From Frankiaceae bacterium (GTDB lineage: Bacteria; Actinomycetota; Actinomycetes; Mycobacteriales; SCTD01), in the NCBI GenBank assembly GCA_016650445.1, contig JAENVS010000044.1, positions 1-37,482 of the forward strand: DNA of 37,482 bases, given 5' to 3'. Every line of letters starts with the position of its first letter. Position 1 is the first letter of the stretch. Made by a program: the position numbers and the translations under genes. A model generated the notes under the pieces. That model ran no database searches and was not told the origin of the DNA. It saw nothing but the letters and a program-made list of their open reading frames with translations. Of this stretch, positions 5,983 to 17,518 are shown piece by piece.

Positions 5983-8244
5983 ATGCCCGCGCGCCGCGTC
6001 ACCCGCTCCCCGCGCCGTCGGGTCGCATCGTTCGCCGTCGCGCTGTGCGCGGCTCTCCTGCCCATCGCCGGGATGGGCGCCTCGTACGCCGACGACCCGA
6101 CTCCGGCTCCGACGGCCAGTCCGAGCCCGAACGACGACGCCCCCGCGCAGGTCCTGGTCACCAAGCTCGCACCGCGCGCCCCGCTGGATCCCGACGGCTT
6201 CTTCCAGGTGCGCGGCATCCTCGTCAACCGCGGGTCGCAGACGCTGCACGAGCTGACCGTCCGCCTGCGACGCGGCGACAAGCTCTCGACGCGCGGCGAG
6301 CTTGCCACCGCCGACGTCGAGCCCCCCGTCACTCCGACTCGGGTCGGTCGCACCCCGGTCCGCGCCGCCGTCCAGGACCTCGAGCCCGGCCAGAGCACCA
6401 CCTTCGACATTCGCATCCGGGTCTCTTCGCTGCGGCTCGGCGCCATCGGCGTCTACCCGCTGCGGGTGGAGGCGCGGGCCCGGTTCGGCGACGGGGGCGG
6501 CGTCGACTCGGTCGGTGGCATCACGACCTACGTCCCCTGGTTCCCCGATGGGCCGCCGCACGGCAAGATCCGCGTCGCGTGGCTCTGGCCGCTCGTCGAC
6601 CAGCCGCGACGGGGACCGCGCGAGGTCATGCTCGACGACGAGCTCGCCACCTCCTTCGCGAAGGGTGGCCGGCTCGACCGGATGCTGCGGTCGGCCGCCG
6701 ACGGCGCCAAGGGCGGCTGCGACCCCGAGCCGGACCCGCCGGTGACCCTCCCGAGGCCGCCGCGCACCGGGCCGTGCCGCGCTGAGGCCGTGCCGATGAC
6801 CTACGCCGTCGACCCTGACCTGCTGTTCACCGCAGATGCGCTGACCCGTCCGTACCAGCTGCTCGACGGCACCAAGACCGAGCGGGTCGACGACACCGGG
6901 CCGGCCAGGGGATGGCTGGACGGCCTGCGCGATGCCGTCGGGCCCGGCGAGGTGCTGTCACTGCCGTATGCCGACCCCGACGTCGTCGCGCTGACGGCAC
7001 CGGAGAACGGCCTGGCCGACGAGGTCTCCCTCCTGAGGGAGCAGGGCAAGAAGGAGACGGCGAACGTTCTCGGGCGCCAGCCGATGACGTCGGTCGTCTG
7101 GCCGCCGGCCGGGCGGCTGACGCGGCGCACCGTGGAGACACTGACGTCGGGCGGCGCCACCGCGCTCGTCGTCGACCCGGTCGCGCTGCCCGAGCCCGAG
7201 AACGAGCCGGGGCGGACGCCCGACACCGATGTCGGTCAGCTCCCGACCAACACGGGCCAGCCCAAGGTCCTGACCATCGACCCCGCGCTGTCGGCGCTGC
7301 TCACACCGACGTACGCCGACTACCCGGGCGACCGCGTCGTCGAGCAGAGGTGGCTGGCGGAGACGGCCATGATCTCGGCGGAGGCACCGTCGGTGTCGCG
7401 GACGATCCTGGTGGCGCCGGCCCGCAGAGCGGATCTGCACACCGCGGTGGCGGCCGATGCGATCCGTGACACCGGCCGGCTGCCCTGGTTGTGCCCGGTG
7501 TCGCTCGCGAGCATCGCGTCGGCCCGCGACACCTGCGCCGACGAGGTTGTCACGGAGGAGACCGACATCCCGTCGGTGGAGCTCGCGCCAGCGCGGGCCG
7601 AGGACGTCGTCCTGTCCACCGAACACCTGCGCCAGGTGCGCGCACTGCGCGCCATCTCCACGCAGTTCACCGACGAGGTCCTCGCCGAGCCGACGAGCAA
7701 AGAGGCGGTCGGCACGACCGGCCGGTTGCTGCGCGCCCGCGCCAGGGCCGAATCCAGCGCGTGGCATGACCGTCCCGGTGACGGGGAGCAGATGCTCCGC
7801 CAGCTCAAGGACGACCTCGCCGACCTGCGCGGCAAGGTCCACCTGCAGGTCGGCAGCGGGACGGTGACGCTGACGAGCTCCACCGGGGTCATCTCGGTCA
7901 ACGTCGTCAACGAGCTGTCGCAGCCCGTCCGCGTCGGGGTCGTCCTCGACGCCCGCAACCGGGCCCGCCTGTCCACCAGGGGCACACCCATCACGACGGT
8001 CCGCCCCGAGTCGGCCGCGCAGATCAACCTCAAGGTGACCGCGCAGACGTCCGGCACGTTCCCGGTGACCGCGCAGCTCGTCGATCACGACGGCCAGCCG
8101 TTCGGTGGCCAGGTTCGGCTCGTGGTGCGCAGCACGCAGTACGGCCGCGTCGCCCTGGCCGTGACCGGCATCGCCGCCGGCGTGCTCCTCGTCGCGGCCG
8201 GCGTACGGATCGCGCGCAGGGCGATGCGCCGCACCTCGGCATGA
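5983..8244 (+). CDS. secreted membrane-anchored protein, DUF6049-like
   Basis: A 753-residue protein of unknown function found beside murJ in actinobacteria (Rv3909 position in M. tuberculosis). It begins with a twin-basic n-region and a hydrophobic core ending in GASYADD, a plausible Sec signal peptide. Next come a Pro/Ser-rich stretch, a beta-rich domain, a large central alpha/beta region, and a second beta domain near residues 630-710. A single C-terminal membrane helix (residues about 722-742) followed by RRAMRRTS places the bulk outside the cell. The ATG is 11 bases after the Nudix stop. Its own stop overlaps the murJ ATG in ATGA, so the two are translationally coupled and presumably work together in the envelope. 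The family assignment rests on context, size and topology. Confidence 0.85.
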   Translation: MPARRVTRSPRRRVASFAVALCAALLPIAGMGASYADDPTPAPTASPSPNDDAPAQVLVTKLAPRAPLDPDGFFQVRGILVNRGSQTLHELTVRLRRGDKLSTRGELATADVEPPVTPTRVGRTPVRAAVQDLEPGQSTTFDIRIRVSSLRLGAIGVYPLRVEARARFGDGGGVDSVGGITTYVPWFPDGPPHGKIRVAWLWPLVDQPRRGPREVMLDDELATSFAKGGRLDRMLRSAADGAKGGCDPEPDPPVTLPRPPRTGPCRAEAVPMTYAVDPDLLFTADALTRPYQLLDGTKTERVDDTGPARGWLDGLRDAVGPGEVLSLPYADPDVVALTAPENGLADEVSLLREQGKKETANVLGRQPMTSVVWPPAGRLTRRTVETLTSGGATALVVDPVALPEPENEPGRTPDTDVGQLPTNTGQPKVLTIDPALSALLTPTYADYPGDRVVEQRWLAETAMISAEAPSVSRTILVAPARRADLHTAVAADAIRDTGRLPWLCPVSLASIASARDTCADEVVTEETDIPSVELAPARAEDVVLSTEHLRQVRALRAISTQFTDEVLAEPTSKEAVGTTGRLLRARARAESSAWHDRPGDGEQMLRQLKDDLADLRGKVHLQVGSGTVTLTSSTGVISVNVVNELSQPVRVGVVLDARNRARLSTRGTPITTVRPESAAQINLKVTAQTSGTFPVTAQLVDHDGQPFGGQVRLVVRSTQYGRVALAVTGIAAGVLLVAAGVRIARRAMRRTSA

Positions 8245-10247
8245 GCTCACCCGAGAGGTCACTCGGTCGCTCGACGCGCACGATGGCCCTCGGGACGGTC
8301 GCCTCGCGCGGGACCGGGTTCCTGCGCAACGCCGCGATCGTCGCGGTGCTGGGCGTACACAGCGTCGGTGCGGCGTACAACGTCGCCAACACGACGCCGA
8401 ACATCGTCTACGAGCTGCTGCTCGGCGGGATCCTCACCAGCGTCGTCGTGCCGCTGCTGGTGCGCGCCGCGAAGAACGACGCGGACGGCGGCGACGCCTA
8501 CGCGCAGCGGCTCCTCTCGCTGGTCGTCGTGACCCTGCTCGCCGCCTCGGTGCTGCTTGTCGTCTTCGCGCCGCAGCTCGTGGCGTTGTACATGCAGGAC
8601 GCCGACGACGACACCCGTCGCCTCGCGACCGTGCTGGCGCGGTTCTTCCTGCCGCAGATGCTGTTCTACGGCGCGGGGGCGGTGATGGGCGCCGTCCTCA
8701 ACGCCCGCGAGCGCTTCGGCCCGCCGATGTGGGCGCCGGTGCTGAACAACCTCGTGGTGATCGCCACGTGCGCGATGTTCCTCGCCCTGCCAGGGACGAG
8801 CGGCGTGTCCGCGTCGACCATTACGTCGCGGCAGGAGCTGCTCCTCGGGCTCGGCACGACGCTCGGGATCGTCGCCCAGACCATCGCCCTGGTGCCGTCC
8901 CTGCGCGCCGCCGGCTTCCGCTTCCGGCTGCGCGCCGACCTCGCGCAGGTCGGCCTCGGCGAGATCGGCCGACTGGCGCGCTGGGTGCTGCTGTACGTCG
9001 TCGCGAACCAGGCGGCGTACCTGGTCGTGGTGAACCTCGCGAACAAGCAGGAGCTCAACGACAGCGGACGCGGCTACGCGTCGTACGTCAACGCTTTCGT
9101 CCTGTGGCAGCTGCCGCATGCGGTGATCGCGGTCAGCGTCATCACGGCACTGCTGCCGAGGATGAGCCGCGCGGCCGCAGACGGGCGGCTGGTGGACCTG
9201 CGTGCCGCGCTGAACCGCGGGCTCCGGCTGACGGCGTCGGTCCTGATCCCGGCGGCACTCGGGTTCGTCGTCCTCGGACAGCTGCTGGCGACGGTGGTGT
9301 TCGGGCACCTCAACACCTCCGTCGAGGAGGCGCGCTTCATCGGGACGCTGCTCGCCGTGTTCGCGCTCGGCCTCGTCCCGTTCAGCGCCTACCAGCTGCA
9401 GCTCCGCGCGTTCTACGCGCTACAGGACACGAGGACGCCGACGCTGATCAACCTCGGCGTCAACGTGACCCTCGTTGCCGTGGACGTGCCGCTCTACCTC
9501 GTGCTGCCGGATGACCTCAAGGTGCTCGGGCTCGCTGCCGGTCACGCCTGCTCGTTCGCGGTCGGCCTGATGATCTGCTCGCGCGTCCTGTCGCGCCGCC
9601 TCGACGGTCTCGACGGCGACCTGGTGGTCCGCACGGCGGCGCGCTGCGTGGCCGCCGCCCTCGTGCCCGCGGCCGTGGCAGCCGGGGTCGTCGCGGCGAC
9701 GTCGCACAGCCTCGGCACCGGCACGGGTGGCGCATTGGTGGGTCTTGTCGGCGGGGCCGCCGTCCTTGGTGTTGGCTACGTCGCAGCCGCCCGTCGGCTG
9801 GGAGTCCCGGAGGTGGACGAGGTGCTCGGTCCCGTGCTCACCCGCGTTGGCCGACGCGTTCCCAGGATCCGCGCCGACCGGGGCGACATCGTGCTCGGCT
9901 GGCTCACCCGGCTTGTCGTGGTGCTCAGCGTTCTCGGCGTCGTCGTGTTTGACGGGATCTCCCTCATGCAGGCGCGCTTCCAGGCGTCCGACCGGGCGAC
10001 GACGGCGGCAGCGGCGGCGGCAGACGAGTACCGCACCAGCCACGACGTGCAGAAGGCCTACAACGCCGCCTACGCCACCGTCGTCGGGCTGGACACGATC
10101 GAGACGAAGACCTTCCGTGTCGACGCCGAGGGCAAGGTCACCCTGCGTCTGCACCACGAGGCCACCACGCTCGTCGTGCACCGCATCGGACCGATCAAGA
10201 AGTGGACCGACGCCGTCGAGACCGGCACGGGCCGCCCGGGCGGATAG
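8241..10247 (+). CDS. murJ: MurJ (MviN) lipid II flippase with C-terminal extension
   Basis: Flips lipid-linked peptidoglycan precursor across the cytoplasmic membrane; essential in this group. The first ~530 residues show the MviN pattern: the amphipathic N-terminus, GTVASRGTGFLRNAAI, NTTPNIVYELLLGGILTSV, and repeated hydrophobic helices with a central NANEQ-type cavity region. Residues about 549-668 (bases 9885-10244) are not part of ordinary MurJ. They form an extra membrane helix (LVVVLSVLGVVVFDGISL) followed by a ~100-residue extracytoplasmic domain with VTLRLHHEATTLVVHRIGPI. In mycobacteria the corresponding C-terminus is instead a pseudokinase plus a sugar-binding-like domain; here those are encoded separately at 11181. 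The GTG at about 9891 could in principle start a separate product, but no stop codon separates it from murJ. Confidence 0.95.
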   Translation: MSSPERSLGRSTRTMALGTVASRGTGFLRNAAIVAVLGVHSVGAAYNVANTTPNIVYELLLGGILTSVVVPLLVRAAKNDADGGDAYAQRLLSLVVVTLLAASVLLVVFAPQLVALYMQDADDDTRRLATVLARFFLPQMLFYGAGAVMGAVLNARERFGPPMWAPVLNNLVVIATCAMFLALPGTSGVSASTITSRQELLLGLGTTLGIVAQTIALVPSLRAAGFRFRLRADLAQVGLGEIGRLARWVLLYVVANQAAYLVVVNLANKQELNDSGRGYASYVNAFVLWQLPHAVIAVSVITALLPRMSRAAADGRLVDLRAALNRGLRLTASVLIPAALGFVVLGQLLATVVFGHLNTSVEEARFIGTLLAVFALGLVPFSAYQLQLRAFYALQDTRTPTLINLGVNVTLVAVDVPLYLVLPDDLKVLGLAAGHACSFAVGLMICSRVLSRRLDGLDGDLVVRTAARCVAAALVPAAVAAGVVAATSHSLGTGTGGALVGLVGGAAVLGVGYVAAARRLGVPEVDEVLGPVLTRVGRRVPRIRADRGDIVLGWLTRLVVVLSVLGVVVFDGISLMQARFQASDRATTAAAAAADEYRTSHDVQKAYNAAYATVVGLDTIETKTFRVDAEGKVTLRLHHEATTLVVHRIGPIKKWTDAVETGTGRPGG

Positions 10248-10274: not shown

Positions 10275-10292
10275 CTGTGACCGGCGTCACAG
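10275..10292. promoter_or_regulatory. CRP/Cmr-type binding site upstream of the NlpC/P60 gene
   Basis: CTGTGAC-CGGC-GTCACAG is a perfect palindrome that contains TGTGA-N6-TCACA, the classical CRP consensus, and also fits the Streptomyces form GTG-N6-GNCAC. Its centre is about 72 bases upstream of the expected transcription start near 10356, which follows a TAGGGT -10-like hexamer at 10344-10349. That distance is one seen for class I CRP activation. Streptomyces rpfA, another muralytic gene with a c-di-AMP riboswitch, is also under Crp control. Confidence 0.6.
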
Positions 10293-10361
10293 TGTGAGAC
10301 AACCCGCAGGCGGAGGAGGTCGACGCTCCTTCGCGAACCAACTTAGGGTCAGGAGAACCAT

Positions 10362-10569
10362 CCGCGTCCGGTCGGAACGCCGAGTCCTGCCCCCCGACCA
10401 CGACGTGCCCTTCGAAGCTCCAGGGGCAGGAGCGGGGGACCCAGGTCCCACGGCCGGATCTCGTCAGAGACCCGGCCTCGGGGTGAAGCCGCTTCCCTCG
10501 CCTTTCGTCAGGCGAAGACGCGGCCGGGCACCTTTCCAGCCCGAACCCGACAGCTCACCTCGCAGGCGT
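10362..10569 (+). ncRNA. cyclic-di-AMP (ydaO/yuaA) riboswitch
   Basis: The leader of the NlpC/P60 gene carries the conserved blocks of the ydaO riboswitch in the right order: GCCGAGTCCTGCC near 10379-10391, AGCGGGGGACCCAGG at 10431-10445, GGGGTGAAGCC near 10480-10490, and GACAGCTCACCTCGCAGGC at about 10549-10567, followed at once by the ribosome-binding site. This class binds c-di-AMP and in actinobacteria sits in front of cell-wall hydrolase genes. It normally turns expression off when the ligand is high. An internal GCCTTTCGTCAGGC hairpin (10499-10512) is the kind of variable stem seen in this class. Exact ends are estimated. Confidence 0.85.
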
Positions 10570-10585
10570 CCGGGAAGGACCGCCT

Positions 10586-11065
10586 GTGCCCACGCACGCC
10601 CACGCACTGTCCGCACGCCCCGAGACCCCCCGCCGGATCCCGGCCCTGCTGCTCCTGCTGACCGCGCTGTTCGGCTCGCTGCTCGTCTCGACCAGCAGCC
10701 CGGCCGAGGCCACCACCCCCGGCTCGGCGTACGTCCAGGAAGCCGCTCGCCACAACGGCAAGCCGTACGCCGCCGGCGCCGTCGGCCCGTACCGGTTCGA
10801 CTGCAGCGGGTTCACGCTGTACGTCTTCAGCCGCTTCGGCAAGCGGCTCCCGCACAGCAGCTCGGCGCAGTACAGCGCCGTAGAGCACATCGCCACGAGC
10901 GCGAAGCAGGTCGGGGACCTGATCTTCTTCCGCACCTCGTCCGGGAGCATCGGCCACGTCGGCATCTACGCCGGCAACGGCCGGATGTGGGACTCGCCCA
11001 AGGCCGGCGACCACGTCCGGCTGCGCGCGATGTACAGCACGAACTACGTGGTCGGCCGCATCTAA
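10586..11065 (+). CDS. secreted NlpC/P60 peptidoglycan hydrolase
   Basis: A 159-residue secreted endopeptidase expected to cut peptide stems in peptidoglycan. Residues 19-42 form a signal peptide (LLLLLTALFGSLL, then SSPAEATT). The rest is a compact NlpC/P60 domain with catalytic Cys73 in FDCSGF and His124 in GHVGIYAG. The third catalytic polar position, often His, appears to be replaced in MWDSPKAGDHV (Asp136 or nearby), so activity is likely but the triad is not canonical. There is no SH3, LysM or coiled-coil targeting domain. GTG is the start, with GGGAAGG 6 bases upstream. Expression appears to be under dual second-messenger control through the CRP-type site and the c-di-AMP riboswitch. 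It lies between murJ and the pseudokinase gene. Confidence 0.92.
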   Translation: MPTHAHALSARPETPRRIPALLLLLTALFGSLLVSTSSPAEATTPGSAYVQEAARHNGKPYAAGAVGPYRFDCSGFTLYVFSRFGKRLPHSSSAQYSAVEHIATSAKQVGDLIFFRTSSGSIGHVGIYAGNGRMWDSPKAGDHVRLRAMYSTNYVVGRI

Positions 11066-11180: not shown

Positions 11181-12782
11181 GTGACGTCGCCGTCCGGACC
11201 CCGCGCCCCTGCGCGCCCCGCCCTCGACGTCGGCGACGTGCTCGCCAACCGCTACCGGCTGGTCCGCGCCGTCAGTTCGGGCGAGGGAGCCGGAGAGGGA
11301 GCGGGCGACGGGGCAGACGGCGGACCGACGGCGCTCTGGCAGGCGACGGACGAGGTGCTCGCCCGTCGGGTGGCGGTCAAGACGCTGCCGGCATCGGGCC
11401 GGGCCGGTGCCGCTGCGGCGCGCCCCTTCCTCGAAGCGGCCGGGCGGGCGAGCTCGCTGTCGCACCCCGGGCTGGCGCGGGTCTTCGACGCGGCGCTCGA
11501 GGAGCGCCCCGCCGAGCGCGGCGCGCGGACCGTCGACGTCGCCTACGTCATCAGCGAGTGGGTAGACGGCCGGACCCTTGCCGATCTGCTGCGCACCGAT
11601 GGACCGCTCGACCCGGTCGACGCGGTCCGGCTCGCGCACGACGCCGCAAGTGCGCTCGGTGCGGCGCACGCCGGCCGCGTCGGCCACGGGCGGGTGCACC
11701 CCGGGAACCTGATGATCACCCCCGCCGGGCGGCTGACCGTGACCGATGCGGCCGTGGCCGCCGCGGTGCACGGCAACCCGCTGCCGTCGCTGCAGCCCGG
11801 CGAGCCACTCGGCGGACCCGAGATCGCCCGCGACACGCGGGACCTCGCGGCCGTCGTCTACGCGATGCTCACCGCGCGCTGGCCCGCCGCGTCCAGCCCG
11901 CAGCCGTCGGCCGGCCTGGCACTCGCTCCCAAGCCTGCGGGCGGCGCCCTCTACGCGCCGCGGCAGGTGCGGGCGGGCGTGCCACGGTCACTGGACGCGG
12001 TGGTCGTGCGCGCCCTGGAGCCCGGCCGCGAGCCCGGTCGCCACCCGATCACCACGCCCCGTGCGCTCGCGCAGGCCCTCGACGAGGCGGGACCGGACCT
12101 GCGTCCCACGCCAGGACCGACAACCGCCCCCGCGCGGCACCGCCCCTCCCGCCGCAGGCGCGTCATGCCGAAGCTGATCGCACTCGGGGTGATCGTCGCC
12201 ATCGGGGTCGTGGGCTACACGGCCGGCAAGAACGTCGGCGAGCTCCCGCGCAAGGACGGCGCGCTCGACGCGCTGGCCCAGCCGAGCCCGTCGCCCGGCG
12301 CGACGGGTGCGCAGCCTGTGCGGATCAACCTGTCGGCCAAGCCCGTCGTCGTCCGCGACTTCGACCCGGAGGGCAGGGACGGCACAGAGCAGCGCGGCAC
12401 GGTGCCCAACGCCATCGACGGCGACCCGACGACCGCCTGGCTGACGGACGGCTACGGCAGTGCCGCATTCGGCGGGCTGAAGAAGGGCGTCGGACTGCTG
12501 GTCGATCTCGGCGCGCCCACCACGCTGGCCAGCGTCCAGGTCGGGCTGCTCGCGCCGGGCGCCGATGTCGAGCTGCGCAGCAGCGACGCCGCGGCCGACA
12601 GCGCCGACGCCTTCACCGTGGTCGACCGCCAGTCCGACGCCAAGCAGGTCGCCACCCTGACGCCGTCGTCGGTCCGCCCGGCCAGGTACTGGCTGGTCTG
12701 GTTCACCGCCCTCCCCAAGGGCGACCGCGGGCGCTTCCGGGACGGCGTCGCGGAGCTCGTCTTCAACCGCGCGGTGGGCTGA
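11181..12782 (+). CDS. membrane pseudokinase (MviN/MurJ partner type) with extracellular domain
   Basis: A 533-residue membrane protein. The N-terminal ~290 residues have a Ser/Thr-kinase-like fold: NRYRLVRAV start, VAVKTL with the ATP-site lysine, and a C-lobe. The catalytic loop reads HGRVHPGN where active kinases have HRDxKPxN, and the DFG position is TDAA, so it cannot phosphorylate: it is a pseudokinase. A Thr/Pro and basic linker (RHRPSRRRR) leads to one membrane helix (LIALGVIVAIGVVGYTAG), then a ~190-residue outer domain (NAIDGDPTTAWLTDGYG) resembling discoidin/F5-8-C carbohydrate-binding folds. This is the architecture fused to MurJ in mycobacteria, where the pseudokinase binds FhaA; here it is encoded separately. 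The glycine/acid-rich insert GEGAGEGAGDGADGG replaces the usual Gly-loop. The stop is 4 bases before sigM. Confidence 0.88.
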   Translation: MTSPSGPRAPARPALDVGDVLANRYRLVRAVSSGEGAGEGAGDGADGGPTALWQATDEVLARRVAVKTLPASGRAGAAAARPFLEAAGRASSLSHPGLARVFDAALEERPAERGARTVDVAYVISEWVDGRTLADLLRTDGPLDPVDAVRLAHDAASALGAAHAGRVGHGRVHPGNLMITPAGRLTVTDAAVAAAVHGNPLPSLQPGEPLGGPEIARDTRDLAAVVYAMLTARWPAASSPQPSAGLALAPKPAGGALYAPRQVRAGVPRSLDAVVVRALEPGREPGRHPITTPRALAQALDEAGPDLRPTPGPTTAPARHRPSRRRRVMPKLIALGVIVAIGVVGYTAGKNVGELPRKDGALDALAQPSPSPGATGAQPVRINLSAKPVVVRDFDPEGRDGTEQRGTVPNAIDGDPTTAWLTDGYGSAAFGGLKKGVGLLVDLGAPTTLASVQVGLLAPGADVELRSSDAAADSADAFTVVDRQSDAKQVATLTPSSVRPARYWLVWFTALPKGDRGRFRDGVAELVFNRAVG

Positions 12783-16399: not shown

Positions 16400-17518
16400 G
16401 TGCAGCTGCTCCGTCGCGGGCACACCGGCCCCGCCGTCGCGGAGATCCAGGCTGCCCTCGCCGGACTCGGGCTCCTGACGGGGCCGCCGCCGCACGCGGA
16501 GTACGACGACGCCACCGAGCAGGCCGTCCGCGTGTTCCAGCAGCGCCGGGGCCTGTCGGTCGACGGCATCGTGGGCCCGGAGACCTATCGCGCGATCACG
16601 GCCGCGCGCTTCCGGCTCGGCGATCGGCTGCTCTCGCTGTCACCGGGCCGGCTGTACGTCGGCGACGACGTCGGGGCGCTGCAGGACCGCCTGCTCGAGC
16701 TCGGCTTCGACGCCGGCCGCGTCGACGGCGTCTTCGGGGAGCGGACCGAGGCGGCGCTGCGGTCGTTCCAGCGCGAGTACGGGCTGCTCCCTGACGGCTC
16801 CTGCGGACCGGCGACGTTGCGGGCGCTGCGCCAGCTCGGGCGGCTGGTGGTCGGCGGCCGGCCCCAGCAGCTGCGCGAGAGCGAGGCGCTGCACCGCTCC
16901 GGCTCGTCGCTGGCGGGCAAGATCGTCGTCGTCGACCCCGGGCACGGCGGCGCGGACCGCGGTGCGACCGGACACGGACTCGAGGAGGCCGCGGTCGCCG
17001 AGGACCTGGCGGCCCGCTTCGAGGGGCGGTTGCAGGCCTCCGGTGTGCGCACCCTGCTGACGCGGGGCCCGGACAGCTGCCCCACCGACGCGGAGCGGGC
17101 CGACCTGGCCAACAACGCTGGCGCGGACCTGCTCGTCTCGCTGCACTGCGACCGGGCGAGCAGTGCCGAGCCCAACGGTGTCGCGGCGTACCACTTCGGC
17201 ACCGGCACCGGCACCACGTCGACGGTGGGCGAGCAGCTCGCGGGGCTCGTGCAGCGGGAGGTCGTGTCCCGGACGGACCTGCTCGACTGCAAGGTGCACG
17301 CCAAGACGTGGGAGCTGCTGCGGCTGACGCGGATGCCCGCCGTACGGCTCGAGCTCGGGCACCTGACCTCGCCGCGCGACGCCGCCCGGCTCAGCGACCC
17401 GGCGTTCCTCGACACGGTCGCCGAAGCGCTGCTGGTGGCGGTGCAGCGGCTCTACCTCCCCCCGGACCTCGACCCGCCGACCGGCGTTCTCCGCCTCGTC
17501 GACCTCGCCTCCCGCTAG
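16400..17518 (+). CDS. cwlM: CwlM-like N-acetylmuramoyl-L-alanine amidase family protein
   Basis: A 372-residue protein with two PG_binding_1 repeats (residues about 5-70 and 85-150; FQQRRGLSVDGIVGPET and FQREYGLLPDGSCGPAT) followed by an Amidase_3 domain. Zinc and catalytic residues seem present: His in DPGHGG, Glu in HGLEEAAVAE, His in SLHCD, and Glu in RLELGHLTS. There is no signal peptide, as in mycobacterial CwlM, which acts in the cytoplasm as a PknB-phosphorylated activator of MurA and not as a wall hydrolase. Position after trxA matches Rv3915. The start is GTG; TAGAGT at 16365-16370 is the likely -10, giving a leader of about 23 bases. The stop overlaps the convergent gene by 3 bases. 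Confidence 0.9.
   Translation: MQLLRRGHTGPAVAEIQAALAGLGLLTGPPPHAEYDDATEQAVRVFQQRRGLSVDGIVGPETYRAITAARFRLGDRLLSLSPGRLYVGDDVGALQDRLLELGFDAGRVDGVFGERTEAALRSFQREYGLLPDGSCGPATLRALRQLGRLVVGGRPQQLRESEALHRSGSSLAGKIVVVDPGHGGADRGATGHGLEEAAVAEDLAARFEGRLQASGVRTLLTRGPDSCPTDAERADLANNAGADLLVSLHCDRASSAEPNGVAAYHFGTGTGTTSTVGEQLAGLVQREVVSRTDLLDCKVHAKTWELLRLTRMPAVRLELGHLTSPRDAARLSDPAFLDTVAEALLVAVQRLYLPPDLDPPTGVLRLVDLASR

Follow-up and report, generated by a model that had tools for sequence, protein, structure and literature searches.

Predicted dual control of a Frankiaceae NlpC/P60 gene by Crp and a c-di-AMP riboswitch with a candidate 5'-side helix

Our analysis suggests that a gene for a putative NlpC/P60 cell-wall hydrolase in a Frankiaceae genome is controlled by two second messengers, with Crp-cAMP activating its transcription and c-di-AMP blocking its translation through a pseudoknot that takes up the Shine-Dalgarno sequence of a class B leader carrying an extra helix, P0; we consider this reading probable from the sequence and its conservation among relatives. 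The window, by which we mean the whole stretch of 37,482 nucleotides that was analysed (contig JAENVS010000044.1), adds a further case of such dual control, a design already in print for the nlpC gene of C. glutamicum and the rpfA gene of S. coelicolor. The P0 helix looks new as a structural part.

The hydrolase gene and its promoter region

The 338 bases that separate murJ from the NlpC/P60 gene contain a Crp-type site, a TAnnnT box and a match to the riboswitch family RF00379. The features of the locus are as follows.

8241..10247, forward strand: murJ, the lipid II flippase gene (PF03023, 299.8 bits; TIGR01695, 310.8 bits), an upstream neighbour outside the element's control
10276..10291, no strand assigned: Crp-type operator, an exact match to TGTGA-N6-TCACA (TGTGA-CCGGCG-TCACA), extended to 10275-10292 by a flanking C/G pair
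10320..10325, forward strand: weak -35-like TCGACG, 18 bases before the -10 (the corresponding hexamer is TGGACA in G011 and G013)
10344..10349, forward strand: -10-like TAGGGT, with a predicted start near 10356
10363..10375, forward strand: P0 5' strand (10363-10368 and 10370-10375), own-strand duplex of -19.9 kcal/mol
10377..10569, forward strand: predicted c-di-AMP riboswitch aptamer, P1 to P1 (RF00379 match; edges by alignment with orthologues)
10377-10381/10565-10569, forward strand: P1 (ACGCC/GGCGT), from the orthologue alignment
10385-10393/10423-10431, forward strand: P2, from the orthologue alignment
10394..10407, forward strand: P0 3' strand (10394-10399 and 10402-10407), which lies within the P2 loop and abuts the P2 5' strand
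10432-10439, forward strand: class B signature GCGGGGGA
10531..10537, forward strand: loop CCUUUCC, predicted pseudoknot partner of the Shine-Dalgarno sequence (complementary core in 10/10 orthologues)
10572..10579, forward strand: Shine-Dalgarno sequence GGGAAGGA, of which 10572-10578 (GGGAAGG) is the second pseudoknot strand
10586..11065, forward strand: NlpC/P60 gene, GTG start, 159 aa (PF00877 NLPC_P60, 81.6 bits)
11181..12782, forward strand: kinase-like gene, a pseudokinase (PF00069, 26.8 bits, under the cut-off of 31.7; translation without HRD and DFG motifs)

The preliminary description of this DNA had placed a perfect palindrome at 10275-10292, a -10-like box at 10344 and an NlpC/P60 gene at 10586, between a lipid II flippase gene and a pseudokinase gene, and these placements agree with the features above. 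The palindrome sequence occurs six times in the 3.44 Mb genome, compared to zero occurrences of its backwards control, and about 0.0006 would be expected in the 338-base gap by genome frequency. It is the exactness and the conservation of the site that carry weight, since matches with one mismatch are common in shuffled sequence: the window has two against 0.54 expected, and 12 of 100 shuffles reach that number.

TAGGGT is the sole TAnnnT in the 260 bases before P1 of the window, and exactly one such box is found over the same distance in each of the ten orthologous leaders; a strict sigma-70 scan found no promoter. All three elements (Crp site, box and riboswitch) recur in the ten orthologous leaders of the family, with the Crp site decaying. 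Its best match has no mismatch in G000, G011 and G013, one in G006 and G002, two in G014, G010, G009 and G004, and three in G012, and since each is the best match within 260 bases, the two-mismatch sites alone prove little. Six orthologues have the centre of the site 57.5-61.5 bases before the -10 (60.5 in the window), three have it at 47.5 and G012 at 40.5; roughly one helical turn separates the two main spacings. With the start set 12 bases after the beginning of the -10, the centres fall near -60 and -70 to -73, which are activator-like, class I positions.

The protein has a PF00877 domain with catalytic cysteine and histidine, and in alignments to PDB matches Cys73 and His124 occupy catalytic places, with Asp136 as a candidate third, polar residue where the aligned hydrolase has a histidine; RipA has a glutamate at this position. 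The N-terminus is hydrophobic and its predicted signal peptide was judged by eye only; secretion and hydrolase activity are both inferred from the sequence. A terminator-like hairpin within the reading frame (10907-10921; one found against 0.3 expected in shuffles) is probably due to chance. Further along the same cluster, an Amidase_3 gene (PF01520) with two peptidoglycan-binding matches (PF01471) lies at 16400-17518.

The genome encodes the signalling partners that such control would call upon: one DAC-domain (DisA-type) gene, ten PF00211 cyclase matches and a close Crp relative of the actinobacterial type, whose scores are 341 bits against PDB 3i54 (the Crp of M. tuberculosis) and 312 against 4byy (the GlxR of C. 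glutamicum).

The riboswitch leader and helix P0

The preliminary description had recognised ydaO riboswitch blocks at about 10362-10569 and proposed a covariance-model search, which returned an RF00379 match at 10396-10582 (+) scoring 53.7 bits (E 7e-10), above the gathering score of 38. The match ends three bases before the GTG start codon; at the 5' side, the blocks came nearer the true edge than did the Rfam match, P1 spanning 10377-10569. The aptamer is predicted to sense c-di-AMP. The RF00379 matches of many class B leaders, such as that of the window at 10396, begin within the P2 loop, and the annotated edges consequently cut off P1 and P0.

P1 is followed after 16 bases by the start codon, and a terminator scan found no terminator-like site in the leader or the murJ-NlpC/P60 gap. 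The core of the predicted loop-to-tail pseudoknot CCUUUCC/GGGAAGG is kept in 10/10 orthologues, with weak covariation. In a test of 95 leaders from both classes described below, own class B strands paired at -14.0 compared to -12.8 kcal/mol for swapped strands (84/20,000 permutations reached the observed mean; 2,701/20,000 in class A), a difference that is small because both strands vary little. A translational OFF switch is the probable mode of action, as indicated for C. glutamicum nlpC. Two other candidate structures were rejected: an anti-aptamer stem formed by TCCTGCCCC and GGGGCAGGA, a pair that is in fact P2, which the Rfam alignment misplaces because the P2 loop is long; and an extended P1 covering the Shine-Dalgarno sequence, which by eye is not conserved among orthologues.

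To place this leader among its relatives, we surveyed 133 RF00379 loci, drawn from the family, a sample of its order and four Frankia loci. Of these, 119 could be parsed (14 could not): 71 were class A, with CCGGGG after P2, 45 were class B, defined here by a GCGGGGGA-type motif after a long P2 with a long loop, and three belonged to neither. In class B, P2 averages 8.6 pairs and its loop 30.6 bases, and the 20 bases preceding P1 pair with the start of that loop to give P0. Among 42 non-redundant class B leaders (3 of 45 removed as near-identical, including the window's own, whose P0 was tested separately), the mean duplex energy was -20.3 kcal/mol for own strands versus -12.9 for swapped ones, and 0/20,000 permutations reached the observed mean; a first test on 34 non-redundant leaders of 38 had given 0/100,000. 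P0 lies in register, at most three bases before P1 and at most one after the P2 5' strand in 41/42 leaders, and a junction run of at least four uninterrupted pairs occurs in 34/42, compared to 22% of swapped pairs. The P0 pairs vary among GC, CG, AU, UA, GU and UG, and across 43 aligned P0 regions P2 differs in length and the register shifts. With a duplex of -19.9 kcal/mol and gaps of 1 and 0, the helix of the window qualifies as a class B P0. P0 falls within the predicted transcript in 10/10 orthologues.

The same pairing was seen in 40 held-out loci of other orders, chosen by score (about 64-78 bits) and genome spread, not at random, and with near-identical leaders kept (L241 and L244 are alike); two of the 40 were unparsed and four fell in neither class. 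Its 14 class B leaders gave -21.9 for own strands versus -13.7 for swapped ones, with 0/20,000 permutations and 14/14 in register. A P0 in every RF00379 leader was rejected, since class A taken together lacks this pairing: 42 non-redundant leaders with loops of at least 5 bases gave -11.6 versus -10.9 (1,559/20,000 permutations), and 19 hold-out leaders -12.6 versus -12.4 (8,252/20,000). By a loose criterion, 17/42 class A and 6/19 hold-out class A leaders have the same register, and the class label, being a motif, is imperfect: a long P2 with strong class B-like pairing is also found in some leaders labelled A (L014, L196, L254, L256) and in some assigned to neither class (L019, L242, L251, L253). 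We regard the P0 subclass as a candidate new variant of the c-di-AMP riboswitch class.

The fact that P0 abuts P2 suggests that the two helices are stacked coaxially as an H-type pseudoknot. In minimum-energy folds of leader prefixes, by predictions that cannot represent pseudoknots, P0 is present in those ending at 10404-10425, is lost once P2 is complete at 10431 and returns in those ending at 10440 and 10500; P1 and P2 replace it in the full aptamer, and P1 is absent from the fold of the leader extended to 10600.

Crp-like sites and genes associated with other RF00379 leaders

Crp-like sites are enriched upstream of the 133 surveyed RF00379 loci. With at most one mismatch, they occur within 350 bases upstream of 21/133 loci, where five control palindromes give 0, 0, 0, 2 and 5, and a downstream stretch of the same length has them at 0/133; with at most two, they occur upstream of 54/133 loci versus 3-17 for the controls, and downstream of two. 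These counts span related genomes and are thus dependent observations. Broken down by class over the 300 bases before P1, sites with at most one mismatch precede 16/45 class B and 4/71 class A leaders (controls 0-2 each), and with at most two, 26 class B (controls 2-8) and 22 class A leaders (controls 4-9). The pairing of a Crp site with a class B riboswitch is strongest in the order of the window, since only 1/14 hold-out class B leaders has a site with at most one mismatch (5/14 with at most two), these hold-out counts being without control palindromes.

Among ten class B-led proteins, picked for spread, a domain scan identified four NlpC/P60 proteins and six Rpf-type transglycosylases, three of the latter with LysM; among nine class A-led proteins it identified seven NlpC/P60 proteins and one C39-like protein, with one giving no match. 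The genome of the window has three RF00379 matches, all with P0, and the other two riboswitch-led genes lie away from the murJ cluster. The second leads another NlpC/P60 gene, immediately downstream of which is a bacterial RNase P RNA (L120 5147-5531 (-), 294.5 bits); the third leads an Rpf-type transglycosylase-like gene (L002 1674-2441 (+)).

Proposed regulation, alternatives and known systems

In the reading that we consider probable, cAMP-bound Crp would activate transcription from about -72, and c-di-AMP would lock the Shine-Dalgarno sequence into the loop-to-tail pseudoknot of the aptamer, preventing translation, with the result that the enzyme would be made at high cAMP and low c-di-AMP. 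P0 would join the 5' flank ahead of P1 to the part of the P2 loop that directly follows the P2 5' strand; stacked on P2, it would form an H-type pseudoknot whose connecting loop holds the P1 5' strand, and it would likely gate the timing of P1 formation. Crp binding and activation, like the role of P0, are what we infer from the arrangement of these elements. A broader proposal, which we put forward tentatively and which may well need revision, is that actinobacterial c-di-AMP riboswitches fall into two subclasses, that P0, in class B, draws the 5' flank into the P2 loop, forms an H-type pseudoknot by stacking on P2 and gates P1 as a control element on the 5' side, of a kind not known from the ydaO structures of Firmicutes, and that in the order of the window this subclass is preferentially joined to Crp promoters, which would place cell-wall hydrolases under a cAMP-AND-NOT-c-di-AMP gate.

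The same two inputs could also be read by a riboswitch that acts on transcription through attenuation, with P0 as a switching helix competing with P1 and P2 during transcription. The prefix folds, in which P0 yields to P2, are compatible with this, and the effects reported on rpfA transcripts keep the idea alive: the S. coelicolor transcript goes up when the riboswitch is removed (PMC9960051), and in M. smegmatis both the transcript and a transcriptional fusion drop at high c-di-AMP (PMC9338955). We nonetheless think it unlikely, as only 16 bases lie between P1 and the start codon of a leader with no terminator-like site, the C. glutamicum effect is translational according to PMC9960051, and the near-absence of a gap between P0 and P2 is explained by coaxial stacking but not required by mere competition. 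Less probable again is that Crp is a repressor here, or acts mainly on a diverged or read-through transcript, in which case a rise in either cAMP or c-di-AMP would reduce the enzyme. Sequence does not tell whether Crp activates or represses, and read-through from murJ is possible because the gap has no terminator-like site; against this, the Crp centres lie in activator-like positions about one helical turn apart between orthologues.

The preliminary description had further proposed that the place of the hydrolase in the murJ cluster couples wall opening to precursor export, a reading under which hydrolase and lipid II flippase would be regulated together. The arrangement does recur: 10 of 24 family genomes, counting that of the window, have the kinase-like gene preceded by an NlpC/P60 gene with an RF00379 leader, and seven of the ten carry murJ on the same contig (G004, G012 and G013 do not); six of the 24 gave no call. 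However, six genomes (G016, G017, G018, G021, G022, G023) lack a hydrolase in the interval from murJ to the kinase-like gene, and G003 and G008 have one there without a riboswitch; the placement is therefore a trait of part of the family. The genome's other riboswitch-led genes are located elsewhere. Nor does the layout support coupling to export: murJ comes before both promoter and riboswitch, and a switch at the level of translation would affect only the NlpC/P60 gene. We consider this coupling very improbable. Some relatives have an extra NlpC/P60 gene, absent from the window, that follows murJ and comes before the riboswitch or the kinase-like gene (L099 1366-1677, and at the same place in G012, G013, G004, G006, G003 and G008). 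G003 also has a pair of oppositely oriented RF00379 riboswitches, spaced by about 1.5 kb (L110 4210-4363 (-) and 5894-5996 (+)), each with an NlpC/P60 match next in line.

Control of a hydrolase other than RpfA by both messengers, as the preliminary description had it, is well supported by sequence and conservation, but this is not the first NlpC/P60 case. In C. glutamicum, cg2402/nlpC follows a c-di-AMP riboswitch that has no canonical terminator, most likely acts on translation and, as the authors suggest, pairs with the ribosome-binding site; binding sites for GlxR, MtrA and EsrR are present as well (PMC9960051). This system resembles the window in joining an NlpC/P60 gene to such a riboswitch and a cAMP-dependent Crp-type regulator (GlxR), and differs in heading a seven-gene operon and in its MtrA and EsrR sites, the window gene lying between murJ and the kinase-like gene. 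The same paper names both c-di-AMP and cAMP in the regulation of S. coelicolor rpfA, in line with the preliminary description; there too a muralytic gene lies behind a c-di-AMP riboswitch with a cAMP input, the enzyme being of the Rpf type, unlike here. The Firmicute ydaO switch, by contrast, works through a terminator (PMC9960051).

The ydaO crystal construct (PMC5393176) and the RF00379 consensus share core motifs and P1 with the window. The construct paper mentions a pseudoknot, and the loop CUCCUUCG is complementary to the 3' tail CGAAGGAG, a strand assignment that we read from the printed sequence. Neither has a P0: the construct, which has almost no P2, begins at P1, and the 5' flank is shown unpaired in the Rfam consensus. 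Among the entries listed by searches of an open-access library, no title or opening of an abstract describes P0 or surveys Crp sites upstream of c-di-AMP riboswitches; P0 may already be in print in the original papers on ydaO and rpfA.

The leader offers a testable structure for the terminator-less c-di-AMP riboswitches of Actinobacteria, in which the aptamer pseudoknot would have the Shine-Dalgarno sequence as one of its strands and the 5' side would bear an additional, conserved helix; structural work with constructs beginning at P1 would have missed this helix. Crp-type sites recur before c-di-AMP riboswitch genes in several families of the window's order, and the single cases in print thus look like examples of a broader design.
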